Part shown: piece by piece, positions 617-37,356 of the stretch | Numbering within the stretch: position 1 is the stretch's first letter | How the letters are laid out: every line of letters starts with the position of its first letter | Origin: Methanobacteriota archaeon | GTDB taxonomy: Archaea > Thermoplasmatota > Poseidoniia > Poseidoniales > Poseidoniaceae | Length of the DNA: 39,995 nucleotides | Reading direction: 5' to 3' | NCBI GenBank assembly: GCA_002689345.1 | Contig: NZFU01000016.1 | Span: forward strand, 1-39,995 | Notes under the pieces: model-generated | Database searches by the model: none | The model's input: only the letters and a program-made list of their open reading frames with translations | What the model was told of the DNA's origin: nothing | Position numbers and translations under genes: made by a program

Positions 617-626
617 TTAATTCACC

Positions 627-980: not shown

Positions 981-1040
981 AGTCACACCTGTAAACCGAT
1001 GAGAACGCGAATGGGCCTTGAACCTGTTGGAGTAATAAGC

Positions 1041-10502: not shown

Positions 10503-12517
10503 TTCCACATATTTTCAGCAACTAATTGCTTGAGAATTTGTTTTGCCTTATTTCGTCTACGATTCTCAATCCCGATTCCAATTACTACCAAAAATACCCC
10601 TGCTATAACCCAGAGGTACTGAGATTCTAGTAATGGCTCTGAGGGCTGTACTGAATCGGTAGAATACATCAAATTATGATCCATTACATTGTTTATTTGC
10701 ACTCTAAACTCTAAATCGTCCTTTGCTCCATCAAGCATAGTGATAGAAATTAAATTTGGATACAGGTTATCTTGCATCAATCTCCAACGTCCTTCCGGTA
10801 TATCGATTGGACGTGTACCCCAAGTCGGGTCTTGAATCAATCCTAAGCTACCTGATTGCTTCATTTCTGTCTTGAAATGAATGACATTCGAATCTGGAAC
10901 TTCATCTACAACTAATAATGCTTCAAGCATCAAAATATCGAGCATCAAAGTCCTTGCTGCCAATAAAATGAATGTACGTGAATGTGAATCAAGCATATCG
11001 TCCACGGGCCTATTAGTGCCTTTTTCAGCAACCTTAGCGAAAATAATTGCTTCGAAATCTAACTCATAGAGCGCTGGAATATGTAATTGCCATCTTCCAT
11101 CATCAAGCGGCCAAGCAGCATCAGACTCTAAGCGAACAGAGAGTGTTTCTCCATCTAGCATTCCAAAGGTTGCACCGACATGTAGTGATCTGGATGATGC
11201 GGGAGTACTAGGGTGTGATGCATGCCATAATTGGTCCAATCTTTTATCGATTAAATCATCTAAACTATCCTCGTCTGAAGATTGCACTTCGCCACTAATG
11301 GCCCATAATGGAGAGATAATACCGCCTAAAATCAACACCAAAACCCCAGGTACAAATATTCCAAATCTAATCGCTTTAGATGTCGTATCTTCTCTGACTT
11401 CGATAAATAATCCTACCAGAACTGCAAGTGACAGAATTAGAACCATCAATCCTGATGCTGCATTCAATTCTTTGGCTCCTGCTTCTTCGGCTTTCATACC
11501 AAACCCTTCCCACTGCCATGATGAATAATCGAATTGTTCAGGAGAGGTAGGACCTATTCCTTCGAATGCAATTAATCCTGCCCATTGGTAAGGCTGGAAG
11601 GCGTTTAAACGACCTCCGATGCACAAATCATATTCTCCTGTAGGTAGAGCACGCCACTGCCAAGTCATCCTTGTTTCACCATTGGTGACTTCTGTTTCTA
11701 ATTCAGGAGTAGGGGCCAATCTTCTATCCGGTAGTATTAGATCTGGTTGGCCATGAGATTGCTCGATTTCTGAAGGCACTTCCTCCCAAACAAATGTGAT
11801 TCTTAGCAATTCATGGTCTTCTACTTCAAACGTCCAACAATCTCTGTCATCTTCGACCAATGCGCCATAATGATTGGTATCTAATTGAGTCATTCTTGGA
11901 GAGCCATCCGAAGATGGTTCATCCACATTCCTCGATTCTACATCCTCTGACCAAATAATATCAAGAAGCATAAACGATGCTCCACGCAAATTCAACTCCC
12001 AAGTACCCGGTCTTTCGATTTCAAACTGAAGCAATATTCGTATTTCCTCACCCGGCCAAAACAATCTGTTACCATCATTATTCAATGGCTCATCTTCAAC
12101 AAAATAAGGGCTTGAAAGACCACCGGTGGGATTAGGGTCATCTTCAAATTCAATTACAGTAGTAGATTCTGCTATAATTATTGTAACTTGTAAATCAGGA
12201 CGAGATAGCCCTATCAAGTCATCTTGAAATCTCAAATCAACCTGTAACTCGTCGATTAAATCAGGGATCAATGCGATTTGACTTTGTTCTGGATGCATAG
12301 GTAATTCGATGAAAACAGTTTCAGGAGAAAGAGGAGATGCAGAATTTACTGTCCCTGTGATGCTTTGTTCACCAATATGGAATTCGGTAAGAGAACAATC
12401 GTTGATATCTTCACAGGAAAACCAAAGTTCTCCTCCACCCTCTTCAGAATCGATAGCAGCCATCGCCATCGGGCTTGAAAGCAAGCAGAGGAAAAGGATT
12501 GCGATAAACCTCCGCAT
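10499..12517 (-). CDS. Secreted/membrane protein with signal peptide, unknown function
   Basis: A Sec-type signal peptide (residues 1-21, ending AMA-A) starts this 672-residue acidic protein. Residues 25-200 and 210-330 look like beta-rich extracytoplasmic domains; the second, with 'DRDCWTFEVEDHELLRITFVW', resembles pre-peptidase C-terminal-type domains. Membrane segments lie at about 354-372 and 384-406, a second soluble region follows, and a final membrane segment at about 632-650 ends in a basic tail. It is probably a cell-surface sensor or scaffold, but I do not recognise the family. It is the last gene of the thioesterase-SprT operon, starting 26 bases after SprT. GAGGT abuts the ATG directly, an unusually short spacing. 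Confidence 0.75.
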   Translation of the reverse strand: MRRFIAILFLCLLSSPMAMAAIDSEEGGGELWFSCEDINDCSLTEFHIGEQSITGTVNSASPLSPETVFIELPMHPEQSQIALIPDLIDELQVDLRFQDDLIGLSRPDLQVTIIIAESTTVIEFEDDPNPTGGLSSPYFVEDEPLNNDGNRLFWPGEEIRILLQFEIERPGTWELNLRGASFMLLDIIWSEDVESRNVDEPSSDGSPRMTQLDTNHYGALVEDDRDCWTFEVEDHELLRITFVWEEVPSEIEQSHGQPDLILPDRRLAPTPELETEVTNGETRMTWQWRALPTGEYDLCIGGRLNAFQPYQWAGLIAFEGIGPTSPEQFDYSSWQWEGFGMKAEEAGAKELNAASGLMVLILSLAVLVGLFIEVREDTTSKAIRFGIFVPGVLVLILGGIISPLWAISGEVQSSDEDSLDDLIDKRLDQLWHASHPSTPASSRSLHVGATFGMLDGETLSVRLESDAAWPLDDGRWQLHIPALYELDFEAIIFAKVAEKGTNRPVDDMLDSHSRTFILLAARTLMLDILMLEALLVVDEVPDSNVIHFKTEMKQSGSLGLIQDPTWGTRPIDIPEGRWRLMQDNLYPNLISITMLDGAKDDLEFRVQINNVMDHNLMYSTDSVQPSEPLLESQYLWVIAGVFLVVIGIGIENRRRNKAKQILKQLVAENMWN

Positions 12518-12543
12518 ACCTCGCTGTCAATAACTGGCACTAA

Positions 12544-13083
12544 TCACTGTGACGCTTTATTGGGTACATCGATTAACACAGTTCGACAAAATCGACAAAG
12601 ATATCTGCCCTTTCCTGGCTTTTGTCTGGGATATTCTTTCTCACACTTTTTGCAAACCCATAACCAAGTTGCTTTTTCTTTACGAAGCATTTCAGTAAAT
12701 GATGAACCCATAGTTCCCGATTCTTGACTTGGCCACAATCTCTCTAGGGCCCTAAATGTAGAATCATGAGCTGTATAACCCAATGCATGGACATATTCGT
12801 GGTGTAATACCCAAGCAGCATAAGCCATCCATTCATTACAGAGTAATCTTGGATGAAGGTCGATAACTTCAACCTGTTCTGGATGGCTTGGGTTTGTTAC
12901 GCCTTTTTTCCATCTAGTAACGCCATGTCTTTGAGTTGCATTTCTTTTTAGAACACCTAATTTGATTTCAGTGACTTTAGTCAGTTCCTGCTCACTCCAT
13001 TGATCCATAGCGCTCATGACTTCGATTACAAAATCACGAAGAGTGTTTAATTCACCAATTTGAATCTTCGAGGCCTTAGCCAT
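12544..13083 (-). CDS. SprT-like zinc metalloprotease
   Basis: SprT/Spartan-type protein with H95-E96-x-x-H99 and a third ligand H106 ('TAHDSTF'). A C-terminal zinc ribbon has C144, C147, C163 and C166. Eukaryotic Spartan cleaves DNA-protein crosslinks; most archaeal and bacterial SprT proteins are uncharacterised, so a role in DNA-protein crosslink repair is an inference. The length of 179 residues is normal for the family. The ATG follows the thioesterase stop directly (TGAATG), with GGTGG seven or so bases upstream inside the preceding gene, which implies translational coupling. Confidence 0.85.
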   Translation of the reverse strand: MAKASKIQIGELNTLRDFVIEVMSAMDQWSEQELTKVTEIKLGVLKRNATQRHGVTRWKKGVTNPSHPEQVEVIDLHPRLLCNEWMAYAAWVLHHEYVHALGYTAHDSTFRALERLWPSQESGTMGSSFTEMLRKEKATWLWVCKKCEKEYPRQKPGKGRYLCRFCRTVLIDVPNKASQ

Positions 13084-13599
13084 TCAAGACCACCGATGAT
13101 AAGCAGGATGACCTTCTGTTACCGCTACAAATAATCCCTTACCTGTAGCACATACTTTGCCGTTTGCTGTCAAAGTCATTTTGATATTAGCTCTATCATC
13201 CATCAACTCAACAACTTCTGCCAATACATGTAATTCAACACCTGCAGGAGTAGGTCTATGTAACGAAATACTATACTTGGCAGTAACTGTACAAGGGGGT
13301 TCATCGGCATTTGAGGCATCCATCAATGCTATTGCAGCAGCCCAATTGCCATGACAATCCATTAAACTACCAATAATTCCTCCATTTATCATTCCAGGAA
13401 ATGCTTGATGCTCATCTGAAGGCATGAAACTCATTTCCAACCCTTCATCGCATCTATGAGAATCTATTTGCAATCCATTCTCATTTGCAGGGCCGCACCC
13501 AAAGCAAATCGATGACGGGGCATATTGTCGTTGAACTCCGATTCCCATGTTTGGTGGAAGGAAGGAGGGGGTTGATTTGTTTATCCTGACATCAATCAC
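13084..13599 (-). CDS. PaaI/YbgC-like hotdog thioesterase
   Basis: A probable acyl-CoA thioesterase with a hotdog fold. 'CFGCGPANENGL' is a Cys-rich lead-in found in one thioesterase subfamily; 'HQAFPGMINGGIIGSLMD' is the central hotdog helix with the catalytic H/N-G-G region, followed by 'TVTAKYSISLHRPTP' strands. The called start is GTG at 13599; an ATG at 13548 (residue 18) would also leave the whole domain intact and cannot be excluded, as neither has a strong Shine-Dalgarno. It is the first gene of a three-gene minus operon. It is divergent from the M14-type gene with only 29 bases between starts, so the promoters must overlap the coding ends. Confidence 0.8.
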   Translation of the reverse strand: MIDVRINKSTPSFLPPNMGIGVQRQYAPSSICFGCGPANENGLQIDSHRCDEGLEMSFMPSDEHQAFPGMINGGIIGSLMDCHGNWAAAIALMDASNADEPPCTVTAKYSISLHRPTPAGVELHVLAEVVELMDDRANIKMTLTANGKVCATGKGLFVAVTEGHPAYHRWS

Positions 13600-13628
13600 C
13601 TTGAAGTCCCTTCGATTAATGGACCAAC

Positions 13629-14924
13629 ATGGCCGGGAAGAAGCGACGCATTAGAGTCGCTCATGAACTTCCCAAAACTCGACGTATTGCGATTAAAAAA
13701 GCGCTCGAGGAACATGAATCTGAGGCTAGACCAGAATGGGATAGAACTTCGGATTGGAAAGATATTCGATTCTTGCGTAAGCGTATCAAAACCGGTGAGA
13801 TGAGAACGATCCACATGCCACTGTTAGATGTTGACATGGGTGACTCTTGGCCCATTCCAATCACTGTATTCCATGGTGTTAGACCGGGCCCAGTTGTGAC
13901 AATTATTGGTGGAACTCATGGAGATGAGTTAACTGGACCAAGTGCGTGTACAAACTTATTGTCTGCAATTTTCACCGAACCGGGTGGCGCACTAGACCCC
14001 ACTTCAATGGCAGGAACCGTTAGGATTGTTCCTGTACTAAATCTTCCAGGATTCCGTGCTAAATCTCGTTACTTCCCAGATGGAAGAGATTTGAATAGGG
14101 CTTTTCCTGGGTTATCGAAGGGAAGTACAACCTCTAGAGTTGCAAATATTGTCAAGAGGAATCTGATCGATGATTCAGATGTAATAATTGACTTGCATAG
14201 TGCTGCTACCGGACGCTCAAACATGCCTCAGATACGAGGTGATTTGTCTCATCCTGAATCAAATCTACTTGCTAAAGCATTTGGAATTGAAGTGGTGTTG
14301 GACAGTAGACCGCCAAAAGGTAGTCTTCGCAGAATTGCGAACGAATTGGACATTGCTGCTGTGACATATGAGGGTGGAGGCGCTAACAGACTTGACCAAA
14401 CAGCGGTCAAGGTAGCGGTTCATGGTTGCCTAAATGTATTGAGGGCTCTGAAGGTAATTCCAAAGAACCCTAGCAGACCAAGATTTAGATTGAATGCGGG
14501 TGGCTCGACTTGGCTTAGGGCTGGTGAAGGAGGGCTCCTAGACATGTTTGTTGTCCCAGGCAGTGTTGTAATGAAAGGAGACGTAGTTGCCACAATCTCA
14601 GATCCTGGCTCTCCCGGCCTTTCAGTAGATATTGTTGCTCCTGAAAATGGTTTGATGATATGTACTGCAACTAATCCATTCGTAACTGCAGGGACTCCAG
14701 TGGGTCATTTCCTACCTGTAACCAAACATATCGAATTACTCAGAACACAAATTGATGACAGAGATGTGCTAATTGTAAATGGTAGCCAAGGTGATGCGAT
14801 ATGGAGAGATGAGGCCGAGATGGTCGAAATCGATGTCAAAGGAGAATGGTCAGGTGGCTCTGTTGACGCAGAATGGAATCAGATTAACGCTGATGAAACC
14901 GAGCAAGAAGAAGCTGATTCATGA
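13629..14924 (+). CDS. Succinylglutamate desuccinylase/aspartoacylase-family (M14-like) deacylase
   Basis: A zinc-dependent amidohydrolase of the AstE/AspA group. Zinc ligands are H97 and E100 in 'GGTHGDE' and H190 in 'DLHSAATG'; 'DGRDLNRAFPG' (151-161) binds the substrate carboxylate, and E248 in 'VTYEGGG' is the likely general base. The C-terminal 150 residues form the usual beta domain with 'PGSVVMKGDVVATISDP', like a lipoyl/biotinyl-type barrel. The first 55 residues are an unusual basic, helical extension absent from the short bacterial enzymes. The natural substrate is not evident from the sequence. The TGA at 14922-14924 shares the palindrome TCATGA with the stop of the opposing gene. 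Confidence 0.82.
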   Translation: MAGKKRRIRVAHELPKTRRIAIKKALEEHESEARPEWDRTSDWKDIRFLRKRIKTGEMRTIHMPLLDVDMGDSWPIPITVFHGVRPGPVVTIIGGTHGDELTGPSACTNLLSAIFTEPGGALDPTSMAGTVRIVPVLNLPGFRAKSRYFPDGRDLNRAFPGLSKGSTTSRVANIVKRNLIDDSDVIIDLHSAATGRSNMPQIRGDLSHPESNLLAKAFGIEVVLDSRPPKGSLRRIANELDIAAVTYEGGGANRLDQTAVKVAVHGCLNVLRALKVIPKNPSRPRFRLNAGGSTWLRAGEGGLLDMFVVPGSVVMKGDVVATISDPGSPGLSVDIVAPENGLMICTATNPFVTAGTPVGHFLPVTKHIELLRTQIDDRDVLIVNGSQGDAIWRDEAEMVEIDVKGEWSGGSVDAEWNQINADETEQEEADS

Positions 14925-16178
14925 TTGCTTTGTAAATGCTTCAACTGCTGCTACAACTTCATCATCTTCCATATTCCTAGGCTGGCTTTTTGCTACTTCA
15001 AATAGATGAGCAACCAAATCATCTGTTGCTTCAATACCATGGTTTTCCAACCAATGAATGATATTTGAACGACCAGACATATGACCTACTCTGATTACCT
15101 GCTCTAGACCGAAATCTCCCGCTGGCACTCCACTGTATACACGGTCAGCTAGCCACATGTCACCTTTACGAATTGCTTTGATAACCGCACTAGCATGTAC
15201 TCCAGTTCCTGTTTCAAAGGCATCCTGACCAAATACTGGGTAGTTGCGTGGCAGAGGGACTTTGATGTACTCGTTAGCCTTATTCACGTATTCATTTAGT
15301 AAAGACAGATCATTATTGATGACCCCCATCAATGAGAGATTCACTAGAGTTTGGTCCAAAGGAGCATTACCTGCTCTTTCACCAACACCCAAAGCGGTTC
15401 CATGGATTACATCTGCACCTGCTTCAACAGCAGCTAAATTATTGGCTACACCAAGACCTCTATCCTGATGACCATGCCAATTGACTTCTATTTCACGACG
15501 CTGGTAACCTGCGTCTTTGATCACTTCTTCATCGATAAATGAAAGTAATTGCTTCACACCATTTGGTGTCACGTGCCCACATGTATCACAAATACACAAA
15601 CGCCTTACTCCAAGTTCCATTGCTCTTTGATAGATCAACTTAACATCTTCAGGTTTTGAACGAGTTGTATCTTCGGTAACAAACATTACAGGGATGTCAT
15701 TTTCAACAGCAAATGATACTGCTTTCTCCATTGTGGAAACTAGTTTATCCATAGTCCATCCTTCAGTAAATTGACGGATTGGACTTGTACCAAGGAAAGC
15801 GCTCGCCTGAATTTCCATCTCATGTTTTGATTGTAATTCAACCAGGGGCTCAATGTCGTTCATTAGTGTTCTAACCGCTGCACCTGGGCGTATTTGGAAA
15901 TCATTTTCCTTGATGTGCGATAGCATTGCATCGATATGTTTTCGATGGAATGGTCCTGCACCTGGAAGTCCAAGGTCTACCTTTTGAATTCCTAGTTTTT
16001 CCATGTAGGTTAGTAATTCTATTTTCTGCTCAATTGAAGGGTTTAGAGCACTAGGACTCTGTAGGCCATCCCTTAGAGTTTCATCATCAAACCAAACACC
16101 GTGTGGGTGGTTAGAAGGGTTTCTAGAATACTCATAATCAACGACATTCCAATCATATATCAGATTCTGCTCATCCAT
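14919..16178 (-). CDS. LeuA-like 2-isopropylmalate/homocitrate synthase family enzyme
   Basis: A DRE-TIM metallolyase that condenses acetyl-CoA with a 2-oxoacid. 'DETLRDGLQSP' is the metal and substrate-binding start of the barrel, 'NWHGHQDRGLGVANN' holds the H-x-H metal ligands, and 'GTALGVGERAGNAPLDQ' is the conserved synthase signature. The 'TGVHASAVIKA' and 'YSGVPAGDFG' region forms the linker subdomains. At 419 residues it lacks the C-terminal LeuA regulatory domain, so leucine feedback by that route is not expected. 2-isopropylmalate, citramalate or homocitrate synthesis cannot be separated from sequence alone. It follows gyrA by 78 bases; a T-run stands one base before the ATG. Confidence 0.8.
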   Translation of the reverse strand: MDEQNLIYDWNVVDYEYSRNPSNHPHGVWFDDETLRDGLQSPSALNPSIEQKIELLTYMEKLGIQKVDLGLPGAGPFHRKHIDAMLSHIKENDFQIRPGAAVRTLMNDIEPLVELQSKHEMEIQASAFLGTSPIRQFTEGWTMDKLVSTMEKAVSFAVENDIPVMFVTEDTTRSKPEDVKLIYQRAMELGVRRLCICDTCGHVTPNGVKQLLSFIDEEVIKDAGYQRREIEVNWHGHQDRGLGVANNLAAVEAGADVIHGTALGVGERAGNAPLDQTLVNLSLMGVINNDLSLLNEYVNKANEYIKVPLPRNYPVFGQDAFETGTGVHASAVIKAIRKGDMWLADRVYSGVPAGDFGLEQVIRVGHMSGRSNIIHWLENHGIEATDDLVAHLFEVAKSQPRNMEDDEVVAAVEAFTKQS

Positions 16179-16179
16179 G

Positions 16180-16253
16180 AAAAAACAACCCTAGGCGCTC
16201 TCGCTCCCCGCTCCGCAGATGGGCGGTCAGTGTTTGAACCCGTCGGAGAAAAA
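16180..16253 (-). terminator. T-runs between gyrA and the LeuA-like gene
   Basis: After the gyrA stop the minus strand carries five T (16253-16249) and, after a GC-rich stretch with the 5-bp pairing CTCCG/CGGAG (16211-16215 and 16244-16248), six T (16185-16180) right before the next ATG. Archaeal polymerase ends at such T-runs, so partial or full termination of the gyrBA transcript is plausible here. A separate promoter for the LeuA-like gene was not recognised. Confidence 0.35.
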
Positions 16254-16256
16254 GAT

Positions 16257-21281
<5,025 letters not shown>

Positions 21282-28613: not shown

Positions 28614-29498
28614 ATGCCCGGGGGCTGTATTATTAGCGACAAAAAAGAAAATCGGCTTGCAGCATTGCGCCAAAGGGTGCAATCTAAGTTGATTAAGTCG
28701 CGAATTGCCACTCGACGAAGAGAAAAGAAGGCTGAAGAAGAAATTGTGGTCAAAGCGCCACAGGTTGAAGATGAGATTCTTCTAGATACTGAAGATTTTG
28801 AGCTATCTGATGGTGATAGAAGAAGGAAAATTGCTTCTGCTTTGGTAATGATTGGTGCATTGATGGGGATATTATCTGGAACACTAATCCTACAGGGTAA
28901 CCCTTCTGGATTGCTAAACTCTTCAATTTTCAAGTCAGCAGATGCTCTTGACATCCATGGTTTAGTTCTAGATGAGGCAGGTGACCCTGTGTCAGAAGTA
29001 GTCATCGAATTGGTTGATCCAGACACCGGTTCTGCGATAAAAAGTAATTTTTCTGATGAAAATGGACGATACATCATCGAATCAGTATCTGTAAAGGAAT
29101 ACGAATTACATGTTTCGAAAGCAGGATACCAAACCGTTATTCTCAAATTCATTCCAGAGCCGATTGGCATTTCACCAATAACAATGCTCGAAGATGAAGG
29201 CAAAGGTGACAGAACTAAAGATGAACGCTCTCAAACAGAGGGATGGTCTATGGAGAATGCGGTTGCTTTAGCCACATTTGAAGGATTATTCACCATCGGG
29301 TGTGCCTTGGTTGGAGTTCATGCTTCGTTTGAAATTAAACGTAAGAAGAAATATCGAAGGACTCAAACGTTTTGCTGGATAGCATTATTCAGTCGTGGTA
29401 TGATTATATTCGGACCTGCGTTGATATTACTAGCCATGATATTATTGATGCTTAACAAAGAAGATTTCAATGACCTAAAGGAAATGGAGGTCTTTTGA
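28614..29498 (+). CDS. Membrane protein with carboxypeptidase-regulatory-like domain
   Basis: A 294-residue protein with a basic cytoplasmic N-terminus (residues 8-45, many Arg/Lys), one membrane segment (about 74-95) and an extracytoplasmic beta-sandwich (about 112-170). The sandwich has 'IHGLVLDEAGDPVSEVVIEL', 'DENGRYIIESV' and 'VSKAGYQT', the signature of carboxypeptidase-D regulatory-like (transthyretin-type) domains. Two further membrane segments lie near 211-235 and 250-282. Such domains usually bind ligands or other surface proteins. Its function is not known. It follows the M28 peptidase by 24 bases and is followed by the thymidylate kinase, whose GGAGG ribosome site lies in its last codons. 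Confidence 0.75.
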   Translation: MPGGCIISDKKENRLAALRQRVQSKLIKSRIATRRREKKAEEEIVVKAPQVEDEILLDTEDFELSDGDRRRKIASALVMIGALMGILSGTLILQGNPSGLLNSSIFKSADALDIHGLVLDEAGDPVSEVVIELVDPDTGSAIKSNFSDENGRYIIESVSVKEYELHVSKAGYQTVILKFIPEPIGISPITMLEDEGKGDRTKDERSQTEGWSMENAVALATFEGLFTIGCALVGVHASFEIKRKKKYRRTQTFCWIALFSRGMIIFGPALILLAMILLMLNKEDFNDLKEMEVF

Positions 29499-29500
29499 AA

Positions 29501-30853
29501 ATGTACCTCATTACCGTCGAAGGCGGCGATGGCTCAGGCAAAGGTGAAGCCGTCAGACTATTAGCATCATTAGCCAACCGGATGGCATTCCCTAATGTTC
29601 ATGTAACGCATGAGCCAAGAAGACACAGTGAATTAGGAAAATTAGCACTCAAGGCCGTAAGTAAGGGAGGCTATACTCCGCTTCAAGAAGCTGGATTATT
29701 TGCTGCAGATAGAGTGGACCATTCACACACTTGGATTCGTCCAAGATTATTGAAAGGTGACCTAATTATTTCAGATAGAAATATTCATTCAAGTCTTGTT
29801 TACCAAGGTGTTGTTGGAGATTTAGGTCTCAAGCAAGTTGCAAAAATGAATGCTGCAGCTATGATTCCAGATTTGGTGATTTGGATAGATTGTGACCCCA
29901 ATAAAGCGATGAAGAGAATTAATTCTGGCACATTAAGGATGGCTGGAGAAAAACATGAGTATTTTGAAACCACTGAAATTCAAACAAAAATTCGTGCAGG
30001 ATTTAGTGGAATCCTATCTGGAGAAATTGAAACTCCACCTCCATTCAATCGTTCTTTAGTCATGGGACCAGTCCTGAATGAAAGTGGCCTAGATGAATTA
30101 GAAAAACAACTTTCACAGGTTCTAAGTTCATTCTTTAATCGAAGGCCTGAGCCACTAAATGTTAGTCGTGACGAGGTCGATAGGCACCTATTGAAGAGCC
30201 TTACAACCGGAGTTCAGACCCAGCAAAGACTCCCAGGCGCTCCCTCTCAACATATATCATTACTAGAAGACTGGTTAGATGGAAGATCTCCTGCTCAATG
30301 GATGGAAATAGCTGAGGAAGAATGGGATGAAAATAGAGCGAAAGGCAGCGATGTCCCCGCTAGACCAATCGCCCATTCATCATGGGCTATACTCGGAACT
30401 CTGTCTCTTACCGATACAACAGATGTTCCTAGTTTGCATAAACAATTAGGCCCTGTAAGATCAGTAACAAAAAGGCATACTCAAAGATTGGTTAAGTGGC
30501 TAGAACAAGAAAGGTGGATACATAGGCAACAAAGCCATGTTCCATTTGCTGAAGCTCAAATGTTCAAGTTACGCAATAGTAGACTAGGTTATGGCCGGCT
30601 CTGTTTGGCAATGTGGCCATTAAGGTCTGCATTATCAAGTTGGAGAAGAGCAAATCCCGATTCGAATTGGGAAGAAGCACTGAAAGACATTATTCACGAA
30701 ACTGAAGACAAAAAAGTACCGTTACAGATTAGAAAAGCGGTTCAGTTTGTTATTGAAAGGCTCCGCCTTATCTCTAGTGGACATGCAGAATGTCCAGTAC
30801 CAAAAGACGTAGAAGAATTATTGGTTTGGTGGGCGATACAGCCACCGGAATAA
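29501..30853 (+). CDS. tmk: Thymidylate kinase-like protein with 240-residue C-terminal extension
   Basis: Residues 1-212 match dTMP kinase, which phosphorylates dTMP to dTDP: P-loop 'EGGDGSGKGE' (7-16), 'THEPR', 'ADRVDHS', 'ISDRNIHSSLVYQG' and the LID region 'RMAGEKHEYFE'. The P-loop has Gly15 where Walker A needs Ser/Thr after the Lys, and Asn replaces the usual Tyr/His in DR(Y/H). Residues 213-450 are an extra domain; 308-345 ('VPSLHKQLG...RHTQRLVKWLEQERWI') looks like a winged helix-turn-helix. The start is ATG 29501, with GGAGGT nine bases upstream; TTG at 29495 is too close to it. The kinase may be divergent or regulatory rather than a plain housekeeping enzyme. Confidence 0.75.
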   Translation: MYLITVEGGDGSGKGEAVRLLASLANRMAFPNVHVTHEPRRHSELGKLALKAVSKGGYTPLQEAGLFAADRVDHSHTWIRPRLLKGDLIISDRNIHSSLVYQGVVGDLGLKQVAKMNAAAMIPDLVIWIDCDPNKAMKRINSGTLRMAGEKHEYFETTEIQTKIRAGFSGILSGEIETPPPFNRSLVMGPVLNESGLDELEKQLSQVLSSFFNRRPEPLNVSRDEVDRHLLKSLTTGVQTQQRLPGAPSQHISLLEDWLDGRSPAQWMEIAEEEWDENRAKGSDVPARPIAHSSWAILGTLSLTDTTDVPSLHKQLGPVRSVTKRHTQRLVKWLEQERWIHRQQSHVPFAEAQMFKLRNSRLGYGRLCLAMWPLRSALSSWRRANPDSNWEEALKDIIHETEDKKVPLQIRKAVQFVIERLRLISSGHAECPVPKDVEELLVWWAIQPPE

Positions 30854-31612
30854 TCACTCTTGTTCATCTTCAACTTTCAGGCTAAAACGGCTACCAGAAG
30901 GCAACATTACCTGTGAAGGCTCCCTGTTGAAAAATGCAGGTCGAGCAGATAGGGAAGAGGCCAAAAATGCTCCAATAAAGATTCCAAATGGAGTCCCTGT
31001 AATCAACCTCATAGTGGCTGTGGATTCATATGATGTTAACATTTGAGTAAAACCATCAAGAGCCATGGGCATAACTGCAATCGCTGCGATTGCAAGCAAA
31101 ACTATTGTTCTACGGTTCTTTCTATAGATTCCATCCATCATTCTATCAGGGAATAAAGATAGGAATGAATCTCTTAATGTCCAACGATTCAAGCCCCTTC
31201 TAGAGAAGATGAAACCGCCGATTGCCAATCCCAAAAATATCCCAACATCCCTTACACATACAGGCATTTGATTGCCATTAATTTCCCAGGAACGTTCTGC
31301 TTTGTTGTGACAATTTAAATCTCCAAAACCATAGATGAAAGCAGCATATGGGTCTAAATCACTCCACGAAAATAGTCCATGTTCACTTTGATTATGGCCC
31401 ATCCCTGCTCTTTCCTCAGTCTGTACATTGCCCCAAGAGCTTTCTGAGAAATAATCTATCGAATTAGCCCGGCCAGATAATTCTGGAACACTATCAGTTG
31501 GAAGGTAATAGGGAACAAGGAAGAACGAGATGACGAAAAATGCTGAGACTCCCCCTACCCAATAGCCAACCTTTCTTTCTCGATTGCGGTTCTCAAGACC
31601 GTTCCTCTCCAT
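30854..31612 (-). CDS. DUF2085 membrane protein
   Basis: A small multi-pass membrane protein. 'CHNKAERSWEINGNQMPVCVRD' corresponds to the DUF2085 core in which homologues read C-H-x-x-x-x-R-S-x-x-x-x-x-x-x-x-P-x-C, and 'MALDGFTQML...RLITGTPFG' is its conserved C-terminal part. Membrane segments lie near residues 19-37, 121-140, 165-185 and 203-220. The function is unknown. ATG 31612 (MERNGL) is preferred to the in-frame ATG at 31624, but either is possible. The stop abuts the stop of the thymidylate kinase gene with no spacer. The start is divergent from the next plus gene across about 58 bases. Confidence 0.78.
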   Translation of the reverse strand: MERNGLENRNRERKVGYWVGGVSAFFVISFFLVPYYLPTDSVPELSGRANSIDYFSESSWGNVQTEERAGMGHNQSEHGLFSWSDLDPYAAFIYGFGDLNCHNKAERSWEINGNQMPVCVRDVGIFLGLAIGGFIFSRRGLNRWTLRDSFLSLFPDRMMDGIYRKNRRTIVLLAIAAIAVMPMALDGFTQMLTSYESTATMRLITGTPFGIFIGAFLASSLSARPAFFNREPSQVMLPSGSRFSLKVEDEQE

Positions 31613-31670
31613 GTTTGACGCCAATAGAAGGAAGGGGATATGTTTTCGCCTGAACCGTAGTGGACAAAAT

Positions 31671-32360
31671 ATGGAGGAGAAGGTCGGTTTCAGGAGAGCA
31701 TTGTCTGCTGCAGTTGTTCTAGGCCTCTACTCTGGATTTATGCTCGGTGTTGCAATTGCGATGAGTATGGGTAATGATGGACTCAAATTAGCAGCCCTAC
31801 TTTGGGGGGGTGTTATTGTACTGTGTGCCCTTGTTTTGACGCCTATTTTGGCTAGAGGACGCAAAAGAGGAGTCCCCGAAACAGATCAGTATGTGAAGAG
31901 TTTACGTAATGGATTGGATGAATTCAATGAAGGAGTTGGTGGATGGAGAACTCTTTCCCATGTACGAGGAGAAGGCATGGGGGCGTCGATTTCTCTCTCA
32001 AATGCATCTAATCCTTTGATAATAATCGAAAAAGCATTACTTATTTCAAACCGCTGTAAATTGATTTTTCGTTTTCCCAAAGACGACCCTTCGTTACGAG
32101 AACGAACTCTTCCAATTCTGGAAGAGAAGGTTGGAATTTCAAGAATTCAAAGACGTACAAAGTCATTGACTGTTGTACCAGAAGTAATAATTGATAATTC
32201 AGTAATCATTACTCGCTCGATGATGCTTTGTCCCCCATTGATGGTAGCCGGCTCAATGGGCTTCTATTCTGTAGCTCCAGGCCAGCATTTACTCATGGCA
32301 TTAGGTGCTATTGCTGGAGCGATTTTAGGAATGCTAATTGTAACAAATAAAGGGCGATAA
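31671..32360 (+). CDS. Small membrane protein, unknown function
   Basis: This 229-residue protein has two N-terminal membrane segments (about 9-32 and 38-60), a cytoplasmic alpha/beta-looking middle (65-180) and a C-terminal hydrophobic hairpin (about 185-225). I do not recognise a family. ATG 31671 is chosen; the open frame extends back to 31584, across the start of the divergent DUF2085 gene, but that part is basic and unlike a protein N-terminus. It is the first of five same-strand genes leading to the M61 peptidase, with 41 bases before the HTH_10 gene. Confidence 0.65.
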   Translation: MEEKVGFRRALSAAVVLGLYSGFMLGVAIAMSMGNDGLKLAALLWGGVIVLCALVLTPILARGRKRGVPETDQYVKSLRNGLDEFNEGVGGWRTLSHVRGEGMGASISLSNASNPLIIIEKALLISNRCKLIFRFPKDDPSLRERTLPILEEKVGISRIQRRTKSLTVVPEVIIDNSVIITRSMMLCPPLMVAGSMGFYSVAPGQHLLMALGAIAGAILGMLIVTNKGR

Positions 32361-32401
32361 CTACCGGAGAAGTAAAACCAACTCTTGTCATGTGGTAAGA
32401 T

Positions 32402-33214
32402 ATGCGGGAAATTACCTTATTTTGGGGAAGGGCCCGCTTAACCAAAACAGATATTGCCCCGCTGCTTAATATTGTCTCTAATATGGTATTTCTAGCATAC
32501 ATCAAACGTACACCACGTGATGTCAGAATGCTGATTAAAGCTAAATTCAAAGAAGGCAAAGTACCAGAGGACTTGAATTCTCTTTACTTCTTAGAATTGC
32601 TAGACATACACCATACTCCTGAAAGTGAAGATGAGAGTTTTGTCCTCAACCTCAGATTATCGCATCCGCTTTCTAATTTCAATGCAAGAACGGGCGGTAC
32701 AACTGCGGCACCAGGATGCAAGATTGATGCTGAAGGCATGACATATATTTTGCAAGGCGGAAATGTAAGACTAAGACTGGTTGTTGCAATGGCTAAATTG
32801 ATGGCTAAGCCGGATAGAATCTCTGCAAGGAAACTCGATTTATCTACAAATGCTGATTCGGGACCTCTAAGTGCAAAACAACTGAAAATGGCAAAATTCG
32901 CGTATGATGAAGGATGGTATGACATCAAAAAACGCGTAAGGATTTCGGAAATGGCAGAGCGTTTAAACATCGCAAGGGCGACACTGGCTGAGCATTTATC
33001 TCGGATTGAAAGCATTGTCATGGATGATTTGATGGGGTCATTTACAAACATAAAAATTGATCAAGCCGAATTTGAAATGTTCAAAGACATGGTTGTTTCA
33101 GATTCGACTAATTTAGGATATTCTGATGACGATAATTTTAACAAATTACTAACAAATATGCATAACACTTTCGAAAGTGATTTTTCTTTGATAGATGAGG
33201 ATAACAAAGACTAG
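32402..33214 (+). CDS. HTH_10 (bacterio-opsin-activator type) transcriptional regulator
   Basis: Residues 156-210 match the HTH_10 domain: 'LSAKQLKMAKFAYDEGWYD' is the family's opening (homologues read L-T-x-x-Q-x-x-x-L-x-x-A-x-x-x-G-Y-Y), then 'ISEMAERLNIARATLAEHLSR' is the helix-turn-helix. The first 150 residues are an unrecognised alpha/beta sensor-like region. A 60-residue acidic tail follows the domain. HTH_10 proteins regulate genes in haloarchaea and related groups; the target here is unknown. The same-strand neighbours (degenerate methyltransferase, HEAT protein, M61 peptidase) are candidates. Confidence 0.82.
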   Translation: MREITLFWGRARLTKTDIAPLLNIVSNMVFLAYIKRTPRDVRMLIKAKFKEGKVPEDLNSLYFLELLDIHHTPESEDESFVLNLRLSHPLSNFNARTGGTTAAPGCKIDAEGMTYILQGGNVRLRLVVAMAKLMAKPDRISARKLDLSTNADSGPLSAKQLKMAKFAYDEGWYDIKKRVRISEMAERLNIARATLAEHLSRIESIVMDDLMGSFTNIKIDQAEFEMFKDMVVSDSTNLGYSDDDNFNKLLTNMHNTFESDFSLIDEDNKD

Positions 33215-33250
33215 TAATTGTAAGACTCAGAACATTGGATAAGTGATATC

Positions 33251-34210
33251 ATGGGCGATTTAAACAAGTTACTGAAGAATCTCAAAGATTCTGGTATCAA
33301 TGTGCCCAATTCGGTCGAAGCCGCCATGAATAAGGTCGATGTTGAGGATTTCACAGAACATGATGCTTCGGGTTTTTATCACGATAGGCCTGTGGTATTC
33401 TTAGAAACACCAGAAGGAGGAATGAAGACTATTTCTGCACCACATATGATTATGACACTTCTTGATAATCTCGAATTAGATAGCGGACAGCATATCGTGA
33501 TTTATGGAGCAAAGGGTGGCTACATTAGCGCATTGGTGGCACATATTATCGGTGAGAACGGTAAAGTAACTGTTTTCGACCCATCGGATGAGATAATTGC
33601 ACACATTTCACACAAACTCAGAGGGTATCCTACTGTTGAGTGTCGTAAATCTAATGACCTTACAGAGATCACTCTTCCACCTCTGAACCGAGTTTTAGTA
33701 ACTGGTCAAATTGAAAGTATTCCTGTATGGCTAAATCATGGCTTGGAAGAGGGCGGTTTTGCCATTGCACCGATAGGCAGCCGCCATAATCAACGATTAT
33801 TGAAAATTGAAAAACAAGACGATGAATTGTTTGAAACTGATTTAGGAAGTGTTGTTTTTGGACCCCTAAACATCGCAGATTCGGTAATTGAAACACCATC
33901 TCCCGTAGAGATGGCCGAATTGATTGAGCAGGTCATTGAATTGATGAATGATGCAGGATTGATCGAAAATGAAGATAAAAATAGATTGTATGATCTAGTT
34001 GCTGAGTTGCGTCAATTACCAGATGATTTACCTCCTCCTGAAGAAATGGATGAACCAGGTGAGCATCCTATGATGAAATTAATGCTTCAGAAAGGCGAAT
34101 GGTTCGTACACTTATGGCCAATTATTCAATCGATGATGGAAAATAGAATCGCATCATATGACTCTTCTGAGAATTTTAATGATGAAAATCATTCAGACTT
34201 TGTTCCCTGA
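33251..34210 (+). CDS. Isoaspartyl methyltransferase-like protein, SAM motif degenerate
   Basis: The N-terminal 200 residues align in pattern with protein-L-isoaspartate O-methyltransferase: 'ISAPHMIMTLLDNLELDSGQ' is the family's conserved helix, followed by 'IVIYGAKGGYISALVAHIIG' and 'GKVTVFDPSDE', and 'GLEEGGFAIAPIG' near 165-177. The SAM-binding loop normally reads E-x-G-x-G-x-G; here it is I-Y-G-A-K-G-G, losing the acidic residue and the middle glycine. The enzyme may therefore bind another ligand or be inactive. The C-terminal 110 residues are an acidic, helical extension not found in typical Pcm. ATG 33251. It is followed by the HEAT gene after six bases. Confidence 0.7.
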   Translation: MGDLNKLLKNLKDSGINVPNSVEAAMNKVDVEDFTEHDASGFYHDRPVVFLETPEGGMKTISAPHMIMTLLDNLELDSGQHIVIYGAKGGYISALVAHIIGENGKVTVFDPSDEIIAHISHKLRGYPTVECRKSNDLTEITLPPLNRVLVTGQIESIPVWLNHGLEEGGFAIAPIGSRHNQRLLKIEKQDDELFETDLGSVVFGPLNIADSVIETPSPVEMAELIEQVIELMNDAGLIENEDKNRLYDLVAELRQLPDDLPPPEEMDEPGEHPMMKLMLQKGEWFVHLWPIIQSMMENRIASYDSSENFNDENHSDFVP

Positions 34211-34219
34211 GGTGGTATG

Positions 34220-35176
34220 ATGGCAGGATTGGAAACTGAAATATCTAGACTCTCAAATAAAGATGTAAAAATACGTCGCAAGGCTGTTAGACGCTTGTTT
34301 GAGATGGAAAACCCAATGGCCCTAAGAGGGTTTGTTCCGTTACTAAACGATAGTGATTTTTGGTTCAGAAACAAGTCACTAGAGGCTCATCGGAAATGGG
34401 CTAAGGACGCCGATGATTTACTACCATTGATGAAAGGCCATAAGAGATTAATCGGCGAATTATTACAAAGAATAGATGCACCTGAAATTGCTAAAGAACT
34501 TCTTGAAGAAGAAGATCACATTACACGTTCATTTGCTGCAAAAAACCTAGCTCAAGTAGAAAGTTTGCATTCAAGATTTGCAGCAGACTTGCACCATTCG
34601 GTTAGAATTATCGCTGCAGAAAACTCTAGTGACAAAGATTTAATTTCCTCCTTAATTGAAGACAAACACTCCTCAGTCCGACGTTCAGCAATTGCTAGTG
34701 CTGCAAAAAACCAACTACAATTGGAAGAAAAAACATTGGAAAAAGGTTTGGCTTCCAGTGACCCAGCACTGCGTTCTCTAATCGCATCTCTTGCAGTACA
34801 TTCAGGTGGGTCTGTTTTGGAAAAGGTATGCAGGGACACCAATCCAAAGGTGCGAAAATCCATTGCAGATACATTGAGAAGAGAAGTTATGGAAGTCGAT
34901 GAAAGAATTGATTTGATAGCAAATATTTGTCCTGAGATAATTGTACGTTGGTTACGTTCAAGATATGACCCAAAGGCGTCATCTCTACGATGGACTATGA
35001 TTGAAAATACTACAATAAATTCTCGAACACGCTCAAAGTTAATCGAGCAAATGGATGGAAGAGACGATGTGGATGAGCAGCGTTTGGCTATTGTTTCAGA
35101 AGATGATTCCGTATTAGTTCAATTAGCTGCAAGTAATCTATCCGCTTCAATTACAGAATTGAGAGGCGATGAATAA
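34220..35176 (+). CDS. HEAT-repeat protein
   Basis: An all-helical repeat protein of 318 residues. Repeat units of about 30 residues recur, for example 'DVKIRRKAVRRLFEMENP', 'DHITRSFAAKNLAQVE', 'HSSVRRSAIASAAKN', 'DPALRSLIASLAVHS' and 'NPKVRKSIADTLRRE', each with the D/N-x-x-V-R-x-x-A pattern of PBS-lyase/HEAT repeats. Such proteins are protein-binding scaffolds. ATG 34220 is preferred because GAGGTG stands five bases before it; ATG 34217 is only two bases from it. The TAA overlaps the M61 start as TAATG, so the two proteins are probably made together. Confidence 0.78.
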   Translation: MAGLETEISRLSNKDVKIRRKAVRRLFEMENPMALRGFVPLLNDSDFWFRNKSLEAHRKWAKDADDLLPLMKGHKRLIGELLQRIDAPEIAKELLEEEDHITRSFAAKNLAQVESLHSRFAADLHHSVRIIAAENSSDKDLISSLIEDKHSSVRRSAIASAAKNQLQLEEKTLEKGLASSDPALRSLIASLAVHSGGSVLEKVCRDTNPKVRKSIADTLRREVMEVDERIDLIANICPEIIVRWLRSRYDPKASSLRWTMIENTTINSRTRSKLIEQMDGRDDVDEQRLAIVSEDDSVLVQLAASNLSASITELRGDE

Positions 35177-36924
35177 TGAATTCCGGGCTACATTTTCATG
35201 CAGATGCTAATGATGGATCCAGTAGGAGACTTGGTGTGAAAATTGCGATTACTGGCCCCTTTACTGGAAATATTCTCGAATTAAAATTTCCCAGATGGAT
35301 TCCTGGATCATACTTTGTTCGAGAGCCAATACAACATATGAGTGACCTATCTGCAAAATCTGATAATGAAGTTGTAAAGGTTGAACGTTTTGGCGTAGAT
35401 GGAATTAGAATTAAGGACATTAGTGACTCTAGTGAGGTGGTGATTACTTACAAAGTATTAGCAGCAGAAATGACATGTCGTGCAAACCATCTTGATTCCT
35501 CACACGTCCATATTATGCCGCCTTATACCTGGATGCTTCCCACCAGAGGAATAGATGCAAAAAGAATGCATGAGACTCACAAAGTTACTTTGGACAAACC
35601 TAAGGATTGGCAAACTGCAATCCAATTACCTGGAAAGGAGGGTGAATGGTTTGCAGAAGGCAGAGATGAATTACTAGATGCAATTATGGAATCCAATCCT
35701 AATCCAATGATTTCTTTTGAGATTCAAGGGTGTAAACAACATCTGAAACTTTGGGATTCTGGTAGTCTGCCCATCCCTAAGAAAGGTATTGATCGCTTTG
35801 TTGAGGCCATGAAATTGGTTATCGAGGAACATTTTGCACTATTCGGCGTGCCAGAATGGAAGGAGTATTGGACAGTATTACATCTAACCCAATCTGGAAG
35901 AGGAGGCCTAGAGCATCTGAGGAGTCAAACTTCTATGATGCCTCGAAAGTGTTTGCAGGAAGGAAATGAAGAAGAGTGGAGAGATTTAGTCTCATTATTC
36001 AGTCATGAATTCCTTCATCAATGGAATGTCAAACAATTAAGACCGAAGAATTTCCTAAATTATGAACTTCAGAAAGAAGTTCATTCTGACTTATTGTGGT
36101 GGTTTGAAGGTCTAACCTCATGGCTTGGAGACATCATTTGCTTGAGAAGTGGTGCTTGGACTGAAGAGGACTGGCGTAAAGACTGGACACGGAAGATGAA
36201 GCGTCATACAGACCGTAATGGAATGGAGCATGAATCATTACAAGAAAGCAGTCACGATGCATGGATTCATCTTTACCGACCTAATTCCTACAGTCGAGAG
36301 GTTCAAATCTCATATTATCTAGAAGGTGAGATGGCAATATTCTGCCTAGATGTTGAACTGAGAAGGCGTTCTAAGGGCCAATATGGTATGGATGATGTTA
36401 TGGCAACATTGTATCATCAGTTCAAATTAGATTCAAACAAACCAGGAATTACCCATTCCGATATTAAGAAAGCTCTTGTGAATACTCCAGGAGGTAGAAG
36501 ACTAGGTAGTATGCTAGACAACCTTGTGAGTGAGAGAAAAGCGCCAGATGTGAATTCTGCGATAAATACACTAGGAATGGAGATGGTCCCGGATAAAAAA
36601 ACAAAAGGTGCATGGTTAGGACTGAATCTGGCAAATGTTTCTGATTCGATTAAAGTTAGAACACATCTAGCAGGATCCCCTTGTAGAGAGGAGATACACA
36701 CTGGAGATGAAATTATTGCAATCGATGGACTAAGAGTTAAATCGACTAAGGAATTAACCGCAGCAGTCTATGGAAATCAAGATGTGAAAACCAATGTTAC
36801 AATCGCAAGAGAAGGCGTTCTTAGAGAAGTTGTAGTTGTACCTAAAGCAAACCCTGAACACTTGCTAAAGGTTGAAGGAAAAGGTAACAAGATTTGGAAT
36901 GCAATCAAATCAACAAAGCGTTAA
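35176..36924 (+). CDS. M61-family aminopeptidase with PDZ domain
   Basis: A glycyl-aminopeptidase-like zinc enzyme (COG3975). The N-terminal beta domain (1-170) includes 'PRWIPGSYFVRE'. The catalytic part has 'GGLEHLRS', H277-E-F-L-H281 in 'SHEFLHQWN', and the third ligand E311 in 'WWFEGLTSW'. A C-terminal PDZ domain (about 475-560, 'KGAWLGLNL', 'DEIIAIDGLRV') is standard for the family. The length of 582 residues is normal. There is no signal peptide, so it acts in the cytoplasm, unlike the M28 and PKD peptidases of this window. The start overlaps the HEAT gene by one base. Confidence 0.9.
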   Translation: MNSGLHFHADANDGSSRRLGVKIAITGPFTGNILELKFPRWIPGSYFVREPIQHMSDLSAKSDNEVVKVERFGVDGIRIKDISDSSEVVITYKVLAAEMTCRANHLDSSHVHIMPPYTWMLPTRGIDAKRMHETHKVTLDKPKDWQTAIQLPGKEGEWFAEGRDELLDAIMESNPNPMISFEIQGCKQHLKLWDSGSLPIPKKGIDRFVEAMKLVIEEHFALFGVPEWKEYWTVLHLTQSGRGGLEHLRSQTSMMPRKCLQEGNEEEWRDLVSLFSHEFLHQWNVKQLRPKNFLNYELQKEVHSDLLWWFEGLTSWLGDIICLRSGAWTEEDWRKDWTRKMKRHTDRNGMEHESLQESSHDAWIHLYRPNSYSREVQISYYLEGEMAIFCLDVELRRRSKGQYGMDDVMATLYHQFKLDSNKPGITHSDIKKALVNTPGGRRLGSMLDNLVSERKAPDVNSAINTLGMEMVPDKKTKGAWLGLNLANVSDSIKVRTHLAGSPCREEIHTGDEIIAIDGLRVKSTKELTAAVYGNQDVKTNVTIAREGVLREVVVVPKANPEHLLKVEGKGNKIWNAIKSTKR

Positions 36925-37356
36925 TCATTCGATTCTAGATAATTCTTCTAGCAAAATATGAATCGGCGGCAGGTGATTAGAAATTGTATGCCTACTGGTC
37001 TTCGGGGGATACAGATCTCCACTTAGGCTCATATCAATCACATCCTGTTTGCTAATAGTTTCAAGACCACACCCCGGCCAAGGGTCTACTGAAACATCAT
37101 CGTTTTCCATGTAATCAATTAGAATCACTGGAACTCTCTTTAATCCTAAAGAAACGGCAACTGAATGGCGATGATGACCATCAAGAATCGCTCCTGATTG
37201 TGAATCAACCAGCAATGGTTTGGTAAATCCACCCCATTTTTTGGTCATGTCCAACAACTTATCTCGATTTTTAATTTTGATTTCTTCATGGGGCTTTAGC
37301 CAGTCCAAAGAGACAAGTGTAACATCATCTGCATCCCATGACATGGCACATTCCAA
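36925..37356 (-). CDS. ParB-like domain protein, probable SerK-type serine kinase
   Basis: A 143-residue protein with the ParB/sulfiredoxin nucleotide-binding fold: 'LKPHEEI' (21-27), 'GAILDGHHRHSVAVSLG' (55-71) and 'RVPVILIDYMEND'. The C-terminal part 'SKQDVIDMSLSGDLYPPKTSRH' matches the free L-serine kinase SerK of Thermococcus, in which the glutamate of the 'EE' loop is catalytic. SerK uses ADP to make O-phosphoserine, linking serine and cysteine biosynthesis. A plain ParB DNA-binding role is less likely, since the helix-turn-helix domain is missing. The start is ATG 37356; a second Met at residue 5 is possible. The TGA abuts the M61 stop. Confidence 0.68.
   Translation of the reverse strand: MECAMSWDADDVTLVSLDWLKPHEEIKIKNRDKLLDMTKKWGGFTKPLLVDSQSGAILDGHHRHSVAVSLGLKRVPVILIDYMENDDVSVDPWPGCGLETISKQDVIDMSLSGDLYPPKTSRHTISNHLPPIHILLEELSRIE

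Follow-up and report, generated by a model that had tools for sequence, protein, structure and literature searches.

The locus and its products

The window (the whole stretch of 39,995 nucleotides that was analyzed) contains five plus-strand open reading frames in a row (Table 1), with intergenic gaps of 41, 36 and 6 nt followed by a 1-nt overlap, base 35176 being common to the HEAT stop codon and the M61 start codon. The unit is bounded by a divergent gene (30854-31624, minus strand) and a convergent gene (36925-37356, minus strand). The named relatives closest to the source, whose own genome is approximately 77% complete, belong to the Poseidoniaceae (MGIIa). A preliminary description of this DNA had reported five genes in one direction with the last two overlapping, an arrangement that the coordinates bear out, and each of its gene identities (HTH_10, Pcm-like, HEAT and M61) is matched by a family score above the respective Pfam cut-off. 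For gene 1, the Pfam family search gave nothing above cut-off, and divergent versions of this gene are found in other genera. Gene 5 also matches M61_N and PDZ, and HExxHxWN is present in at least 74 of the 76 M61 ORFs longer than 500 aa. Since gene 5 contains no hydrophobic segment, the peptidase is probably cytosolic, as had been proposed.

Table 1. Features of the five-gene unit, with positions in the window.
Feature	Positions	Strand	Remarks
Gene 1, membrane protein, 229 aa	31671..32360	+	First of unit; three hydrophobic segments
Gene 2, HTH_10 regulator, 270 aa	32402..33214	+	PF04967, 52.7 bits (cut-off 23.1)
Gene 3, Pcm-like protein, 319 aa	33251..34210	+	PF01135 (PCMT), 88.7 bits (cut-off 20.3)
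Gene 3, residues 59-66, K-T-I-S-A-P-H-M	33425..33448	+	IsoAsp contacts Thr60 and Ser62 retained; Lys/Arg in place of canonical Gln59
Gene 3, residues 86-91, G-A-K-G-G-Y	33506..33523	+	SAM motif I with invariant Lys88
Gene 3, residues 208-301, helical C-terminal domain	33872..34153	+	Not in ordinary Pcm
Gene 3, residues 298-319, low-confidence tail	34142..34207	+	Ends H-S-D-F-V-P; pLDDT < 50
Gene 4, HEAT-repeat protein, 319 aa	34217..35176	+	PF13646 (HEAT_2), 40.9 bits (cut-off 27.7)
Gene 5, M61 peptidase with PDZ, 582 aa	35176..36924	+	PF05299 (Peptidase_M61), 123.9 bits (cut-off 22)
Gene 5, HEFLH zinc-binding motif	36004..36018	+	Read from sequence

The Pcm-like protein

The model of gene 3 (pLDDT 82.9) consists of a PIMT fold (residues 1-206) followed by a helical C-terminal domain and a disordered tail. 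The fold assignment follows from the match to 2yxe_B (Z 27.4 over 201 residues, 2.0 Å), with further Z scores of 26.3 for 1jg1, 23.8 for 8qby_t and 21.2 for 9oma_A; VIA-align served as a second look, restricted to Foldseek's list. The protein nevertheless scores below all NCBIfam PIMT equivalog cut-offs (98.1 vs 282, 85.4 vs 159.05 and 64.5 vs 188). The C-terminal domain alone, a weak model (pLDDT 69.4), had no Foldseek match with E <= 0.001. Both the helical domain and the tail are conserved among Pcm-like proteins, with a tail ending of H-x-D-[LFM]-[VITN]-P in 59 of 115 ORFs from redundant sets. Among the matches listed from 292 genomes of the phylum, proteins with the additional C-terminal domain occur exclusively in this order.

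All 177 scorable Pcm-like sequences (from 179 ORFs in overlapping, partly redundant genome sets, two of which lack these positions) have an altered SAM site, with Lys/Arg59, Lys88 and no strand-1 acid at position 84, whereas Q59, E84 and G88 are found in 23/23 rows of ordinary Thermoplasmatota Pcm (every non-Poseidoniales locus among the best 30 matches, the query's own left out). Gene 3 retains Gly86 and Gly90, with Lys88 in place of the middle glycine, as well as Asp110, the acid that ends strand 2, so the SAM glycine motif previously described as missing is altered, through Lys88 and the lost strand-1 acid, but not absent. Gly86, Gly90, Tyr91 and Asp/Glu110 are fixed across the scored sequences, and the fixation of Asp/Glu110 makes some nucleotide-like ligand possible. 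Ordinary enzymes mostly have G-D-G where gene 3 lacks a D-G pair, in a stretch that aligns poorly. Of the isoAsp-contact residues, Ser62 is present in 177/177 and Thr60 in 160/177 scorable sequences. In the available text of PMC11522691, isoAsp binding is reported for Thr60/Ser62 of true PIMTs, and an arginine at position 59 of the complex I PIMT is reported to obstruct the cofactor. Because the altered residues do not vary in either family, gene 3 was rejected as a mere wreck of a gene; from this sequence pattern, we infer a PIMT relative with a SAM-free pocket that would have lost SAM binding.

In a phylogenetic tree, the sampled Pcm-like sequences (39/39, support 0.873) cluster into one group, separate from both the ordinary archaeal Pcm and the bacterial-type Pcm, an outcome under which recent gain from bacteria was rejected. 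The sample comprised 39 of the 179 ORFs (thinned at 72% identity, with gappy rows dropped) and 34 others; one 817-aa PIMT-like protein had been mislabeled with the bacterial-type group, which leaves the rooting arbitrary. Elsewhere in the Thermoplasmatota, genome G185 encodes a 449-aa protein (L218) with Arg59, G-S-K-S-G-Y and a sub-threshold TPR match; used as a query against 292 genomes to look for a wider lysine family, this protein retrieved no close relative except itself. Putative descent of gene 3 from a protein-isoaspartate methyltransferase, without the usual use of SAM, is part of the best explanation.

Gene order and distribution

Eighty named loci were compared, 72 of which extend far enough past the 3' end of the Pcm-like gene to show its downstream neighbors. 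The HEAT gene is next in 62 of these 72 (median distance 9 nt) and is followed by M61 in 46 (median HEAT-M61 distance -4 nt). However, tmk, DUF2085, a ParB-like gene and the CCA gene are also conserved around the unit, and because these flanking genes are equally conserved, adjacency alone proves little. Among the 59 named loci with Poseidoniaceae-type neighbors and room upstream, HTH_10 lies directly upstream of the Pcm-like gene in 46, a membrane gene in 11, and nothing labeled in two. HTH_10 was not labeled at any of the 18 sister-family loci examined upstream, nor at the eight g3 and g10 loci (L207-L214), which are without Pcm-like; at the loci examined, it was labeled solely where Pcm-like is present. 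In some genera, HEAT is absent between Pcm-like and M61, and in others it stays without Pcm-like. At L082, L093, L200 and L206, the Pcm-like and HEAT genes are together even though the ParB-CCA pair is apart and inverted.

At nine sister-family loci, an S51 peptidase (PepE) overlaps the HEAT gene in the place where M61 stands elsewhere, at a distance of -4 in eight and -29 (longest start) in one; two of these loci, L082 and L206, probably represent a single contig. The three of the nine proteins searched scored 236.5, 235.0 and 236.5 against the NCBIfam PepE equivalog cut-off of 156. This placement of PepE probably reflects one event in one lineage. The HEAT gene therefore overlaps genes of two unrelated peptidases, depending on lineage. 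No genome of the 145 contains both M61 and S51, an exclusion that largely follows the division into two families.

Across the 145 genomes of the order Poseidoniales, the Pcm-like gene was found in 114, together with M61 in 47 and alone in 67, while 23 genomes contain M61 alone and eight contain neither. The Pcm-like gene did not turn up in any genome of genus g10. In three Poseidoniaceae genomes, Pcm-like is present without M61 (G051, G005 and G162); in two of the three, a contig end lies beside the Pcm-like gene (L014 and L036), so these absences of M61 are weak. This separation of the genes among genomes led to rejection of a fixed five-gene system. The module proposed in the preliminary description is accordingly not upheld, since in several genera the HEAT gene is lacking from the locus or stands there by itself, and no regulator was seen at the 18 sister-family loci examined upstream; the neighborhood comparison it had suggested yielded an order that recurs across the family and parts that separate between genomes.

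Ordinary-type Pcm was detected in nine of the 145 genomes, which are incomplete. All nine copies are of the Q-T-I-S-Q-P type, which we take to be associated with bacteria, and are possible contaminants. The Pcm-like gene is also present in all nine genomes and is thus not a plain substitute. A PF01112 protein (isoaspartyl peptidase/asparaginase family) was found in 44 of 60 genomes. A further PF01135 match in the genome of the window, barely above cut-off at 21.6 bits, lies in a 408-aa ORF with D-P-A-C-G-S-G, which by eye appears to be some other methyltransferase.

Possible functions of the Pcm-like protein

The Pcm-like pattern and its peptidase neighbors hint at a role in recognizing or removing damaged protein rather than in repairing it. 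Gene 3 would bind protein or peptide that contains isoAsp (or is rich in Asp) without methylating it, with the basic residues Lys/Arg59 and Lys88 occupying the place of the cofactor while the isoAsp-gripping residues stay. Its helical domain and tail may deliver this cargo to other proteins, with the HEAT protein as the foremost candidate, and the HEAT protein may in turn work with its lineage's peptidase (M61 or PepE) or with a different one. A point against this is that PepE and M61 act on short peptides or N-termini rather than on damaged proteins as a whole. The binding of isoAsp, the contact between proteins and the hand-over to a peptidase are all predictions. Taken as a whole, the leading reading, tentative and quite possibly wrong, is an adaptor that binds isoAsp, does not methylate it and is loosely linked to peptidases. 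Part of the damaged-protein system proposed earlier survives in it (kept isoAsp contacts, a remodeled SAM site and the HEAT-peptidase overlap), without the fixed five-gene set. A stronger version, in which the order gave up isoAsp repair and a PIMT that two basic residues keep free of SAM reads damaged chains and feeds them via HEAT to interchangeable peptidases, as a prokaryotic parallel to PCMTD1, is unlikely.

There are several potential alternatives to the adaptor reading. It is possible, although somewhat unlikely, that Pcm-like, HEAT and M61 are adjacent by descent and share no task, as would fit the equal conservation of tmk, DUF2085, ParB-like and CCA and the occurrence of all four Pcm-like/M61 combinations; the Pcm-HEAT pair kept at the four loci with a displaced, inverted ParB-CCA pair and the overlap of HEAT with two unrelated peptidase genes argue against this. 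We also doubt that the gene 3 protein has a purely structural role within a complex and does not bind isoAsp, like the PIMT of Paracoccus complex I. The SAM contacts are altered in both and the helical domain and tail are conserved, but the complex I protein has, according to the portion of PMC11522691 available, lost Thr60/Ser62, the residues so widely kept here.

Continued methylation with an altered mode of SAM binding would agree with the fixed Gly86, Gly90, Tyr91 and Asp/Glu110, but seems very unlikely given the loss of acid 84, the basic residues at 59 and 88, the missing D-G pair (in a poorly aligned stretch) and scores far under the PIMT equivalog cut-offs. Least credible, and in our judgment highly improbable, is a sensor in which the lysine pocket binds another ligand (phosphate or nucleotide) and Pcm-like informs the HTH_10 regulator: at the loci examined, HTH_10 was labeled nowhere without Pcm-like, but it does not adjoin Pcm-like in 13 of the 59 named Poseidoniaceae-type loci with room upstream or in the 18 sister-family loci.

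Enzymes of isoAsp repair are very widespread, and Poseidoniales are abundant ocean archaea in most of whose genomes examined here, which are incomplete, the usual enzyme was not found. A rebuilt SAM site together with strictly constrained isoAsp contacts would make it possible to study recognition apart from methylation, and gene 3, if so, would be a further PIMT relative turned to a non-methylating task. There is debate over whether the role of Pcm is protein repair or aspartate salvage, as the accessible part of PMC10857468 describes. Word searches of open-licence literature, which listed one Baltic Sea review, found no paper on the lysine-pocket Pcm-like protein of Poseidoniales.

Comparison with known systems

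Compared to PIMT/Pcm (2yxe, 1jg1), gene 3 has the same fold, Thr60/Ser62 isoAsp contacts and overall segment order, but differs in Lys/Arg59, Lys88, the lack of a strand-1 acid, and the extra C-terminal domain and tail. The complex I PIMT of Paracoccus denitrificans (8qby_t; PMC11522691, as far as available) is likewise PIMT-derived, with altered SAM contacts and a basic residue 59, whereas of the Thr60 and Ser62 that it has lost, gene 3 keeps both. PCMTD1 (9oma_A) similarly has a PIMT domain inside a longer chain and was solved with a CUL5 ubiquitin-ligase assembly (entry title of 9oma_A); according to a review, in the text available, one study failed to detect its methylation of isoAsp (PMC11514484). 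However, no sequence or fold match of the extension emerged, and any partners in archaea would be HEAT and the peptidases. The RiPP-associated PIMT homologues described in the available part of PMC13001092 also carry an extra C-terminal domain on the PIMT domain; they differ in that they methylate Asp, and by eye gene 3 lacks the W-x-x-x-G-x-P motif that most of them have. Gene 5 has the HExxH of M61 peptidases (4fgm, 8j9c), and the sister-family PepE, above its equivalog cut-off, resembles peptidase E (7c9b, 1fy2); both differ from these known peptidases in being associated here with HEAT and Pcm-like genes.

Organization of the unit and its surroundings

The five same-direction open reading frames are separated by gaps of 41, 36 and 6 nt, with the last two overlapping by one base, and the unit is flanked by a small convergent gene on one side and, on the other, by a DUF2085 membrane gene in divergent orientation. 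Pfam assigned genes 2-5 to HTH_10, PCMT, HEAT_2 and Peptidase_M61 with PDZ, while gene 1 contains three hydrophobic segments and matched no Pfam family over the cut-off; the gene list of the preliminary description is correct. The genome containing the window is 1.68 Mb in size and 77% complete. Other features in the window and in the loci compared (L numbers) are listed in the table; of these, the small gene bounding the unit keeps its place next to CCA in most of the loci that were examined. TldD and TldE are proteases acting on modified peptides.

Features of the window and of compared loci
Feature	Source	Coordinates	Strand	Remarks
Five-gene unit	Window	31671-36924	+	
Pcm-like (gene 3)	Window	33251-34210	+	319 aa
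HEAT (gene 4)	Window	34217-35176	+	
M61 peptidase (gene 5)	Window	35176-36924	+	
Small convergent gene	Window	36925-37356	-	Matches archaeal SerK (N-terminal part) at 61 bits, cut-off 380
dTMP kinase	Window	29495-30853	+	C-terminal extension of ~280 residues without match
Two neighbouring genes	Window	3869-6711	-	TldD- and TldE-like by eye
Insertion of ~6 kb	L052 (same contig as L140)	10864-16971		Separates Pcm-like from HEAT
PIMT-like protein	L108 (also L059)	334-2784	-	817 aa; basic motif I residue, G-A-K-G
PIMT-like protein	L113	4841-6304	-	488 aa; G-P-R-G in motif I; TPR matches below cut-off
PIMT-like protein	L218 (another Thermoplasmatota family)	4374-5720	-	449 aa; Arg59, G-S-K-S-G-Y
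No HEAT between Pcm-like and M61	L033, L042, L037, L043, L047, L048, L041			
S51 peptidase after HEAT	L082, L093, L182, L187, L200, L201, L202, L205, L206			

Distribution of the genes in Poseidoniales

In Poseidoniaceae the order tmk, DUF2085, the five genes of the unit, ParB-like and CCA is kept, with gaps. Since neither tmk nor CCA is evidently linked with the other genes, this conservation is partly plain descent. Among 80 named loci, 72 had room downstream of Pcm-like, where the next gene was HEAT (62 loci), ParB-like (5), M61 (4) or none with a label (1). HEAT and M61 were closely spaced in 46 loci (-17 to 14 nt, median -4 nt), and no HTH_10 label was found upstream of Pcm-like in the 18 loci with room from the sister family, which we infer to be Thalassarchaeaceae. 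Poseidoniales-type Pcm-like, ParB-like and CCA genes also occur in a record of Nitrospiraceae bacterium UBA2166 (L198), probably a misplaced contig.

A single set of 145 Poseidoniales genomes was tallied by hand for Pcm-like and M61. Both were present in 47 genomes, all Poseidoniaceae; 67 carried Pcm-like without M61 (3 Poseidoniaceae, two of them at contig ends, and 64 of the sister family, 2 with partial genes), 23 carried M61 without Pcm-like (20 Poseidoniaceae of genera g3 and g10 and 3 sister-family genomes of genus g19), and 8 had neither. Single absences are weak evidence in incomplete genomes, but the absences extend over whole genera. HEAT and M61 occur without Pcm-like in g10 (5 loci, L207-L211) and g19 (3 loci, L215-L217), HEAT occurs without either in g12 (5 loci, L219-L223), and loci of g2, g6 and g7, together with one of the two g5 loci, have no HEAT between Pcm-like and M61. 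In g3 (three loci, L212-L214) the membrane gene and M61 remain. No gene pair of the unit is obligate across the genomes and loci examined, which rules out the full five-gene chain as a fixed machine.

Peptidases adjoining HEAT

At nine sister-family loci, HEAT is followed not by M61 but by an S51 peptidase of 241-249 aa, at a distance of -4 nt in eight; in the other one the distance is -29 nt when the longest start is taken. Two of these loci, L082 and L093, come from genus g15, and L206, whose contig equals that of L082 in length, is probably on that same contig. The three S51 proteins given to family searches were all Peptidase_S51 and over the PepE equivalog cut-off, and the remaining six share their sequence start; the PDB relatives of one are alpha-aspartyl dipeptidases (7c9b, 3.4e-47; 1fy2). 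S51 exceeded the cut-off in 51 of the 145 genomes, all of the sister family. It lies about 1 kb past Pcm-like in 7 of 8 g15 genomes (the other, G103, showed neither gene) and on the same contig 17-25 kb away, start to start, in 23 sister-family genomes outside g15; in the remainder it was on a different contig or comparison was impossible. M61 was found in 70 genomes and never together with S51 (0/145), an exclusion that tracks the family split except in g19, which is part of the sister family and has M61 but showed no match to S51.

The preliminary description had proposed that the Pcm-like protein recognises isoaspartyl (isoAsp) protein and that HEAT passes it to the peptidase. The best support for the proposed link between HEAT and a peptidase is that the HEAT gene is overlapped by unrelated peptidase genes in two lineages, support that amounts to approximately two events. 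Joint action of Pcm-like and HEAT has a slightly less than even chance of being correct, and delivery of cargo to a peptidase is unlikely.

The Pcm-like protein

The gene 3 model (pLDDT 82.9, built with 46 sequences) has a PIMT fold in residues 1-210. It aligns with 2yxe_B at Z 27.4 (201 residues, 2.0 Å), and there are further matches to 1jg1 (Z 26.3) and PCMTD1 (9oma_A, Z 21.2). Residues 208-301 are modelled as helical, and the last 22 residues have pLDDT <50. When a profile of 25 sequences was searched against 292 phylum genomes, the matches covering the C-terminal domain were, among those listed, all from the order, and other listed Thermoplasmatota matches stopped near profile position 212. 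In a tree, Pcm-like of the Poseidoniaceae genera g2, g5, g6 and g7 (L033, L035, L036, L037, L045, L047) clusters with the sister family, apart from other Poseidoniaceae; several of these loci have no HEAT label alongside.

Selected alignment positions were compared across 179 Pcm-like ORFs scoring at least 160 bits. The ORFs are not independent, because the set of named genomes overlaps with the unnamed one; two of them lacked these positions. Position 59 is Lys in 173 and Arg in 4, position 88 is always Lys (177/177), and position 84 is never acidic (60 Ile, 60 Val, 56 Leu, 1 Gln). By comparison, 23 ordinary Thermoplasmatota Pcm sequences, the non-Poseidoniales loci among the best 30 of one search, have Gln59, Glu84 and Gly88. 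Gene 3 also has no D-G pair at the usual G-D-G place of ordinary enzymes, in a poorly aligned stretch. Gly86, Gly90, Tyr91 and Ser62 are each invariant (177/177), position 110 is Asp (150) or Glu (27), and position 60 is Thr in 160 (Asn 12, Met 2, Ser 2, Ala 1). According to PMC11522691, Thr60 and Ser62 hydrogen-bond isoAsp in PIMT, and SAM is contacted by Asp134 and Gly135; the complex I PIMT is inactive, and its Arg59 obstructs the cofactor. Judged in this way from its sequence, the Poseidoniales protein joins the obstructing basic residue and an altered SAM motif to retained isoAsp contacts, which the complex I protein has lost, and this combination is unusual. The Pcm-like protein is very probably a SAM-independent PIMT relative; that it binds isoAsp is a tentative prediction from its residues, not quite an even prospect.

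Other PIMT-like frames were also seen: those of L108 and L113, both within the order, have a basic residue in motif I, the genome of L218 carries a second, shorter PIMT match, and several sister-family genomes have PF01135 matches in frames of ~480-500 aa.

Possible isoaspartate disposal and comparison with known systems

Ordinary-type Pcm was found in 9 of the 145 genomes, all of the Q-T-I-S-Q-P type (contamination is possible), and all nine also carry the Pcm-like gene. A PF01112 protein (isoaspartyl peptidase and asparaginase) was present in 44 of 60 genomes, including that of the window. Since PF01112 is common and ordinary-type Pcm infrequent, Poseidoniales could dispose of isoAsp by hydrolysis instead of repair. 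Pcm-dependent aspartate salvage has been studied in E. coli (PMC10857468), and that work suggests a related role in which isoAsp peptides would be captured for aspartate recovery, a role that would suit PepE better than protein quality control does.

Word searches of open-licence PMC papers found no published account of the Poseidoniales Pcm-like protein. It is a PIMT by descent, but without the defining SAM site. It may work similarly to PCMTD1 or to the complex I PIMT; in the latter the isoAsp contacts are lost, whereas Poseidoniales Pcm-like proteins keep them.
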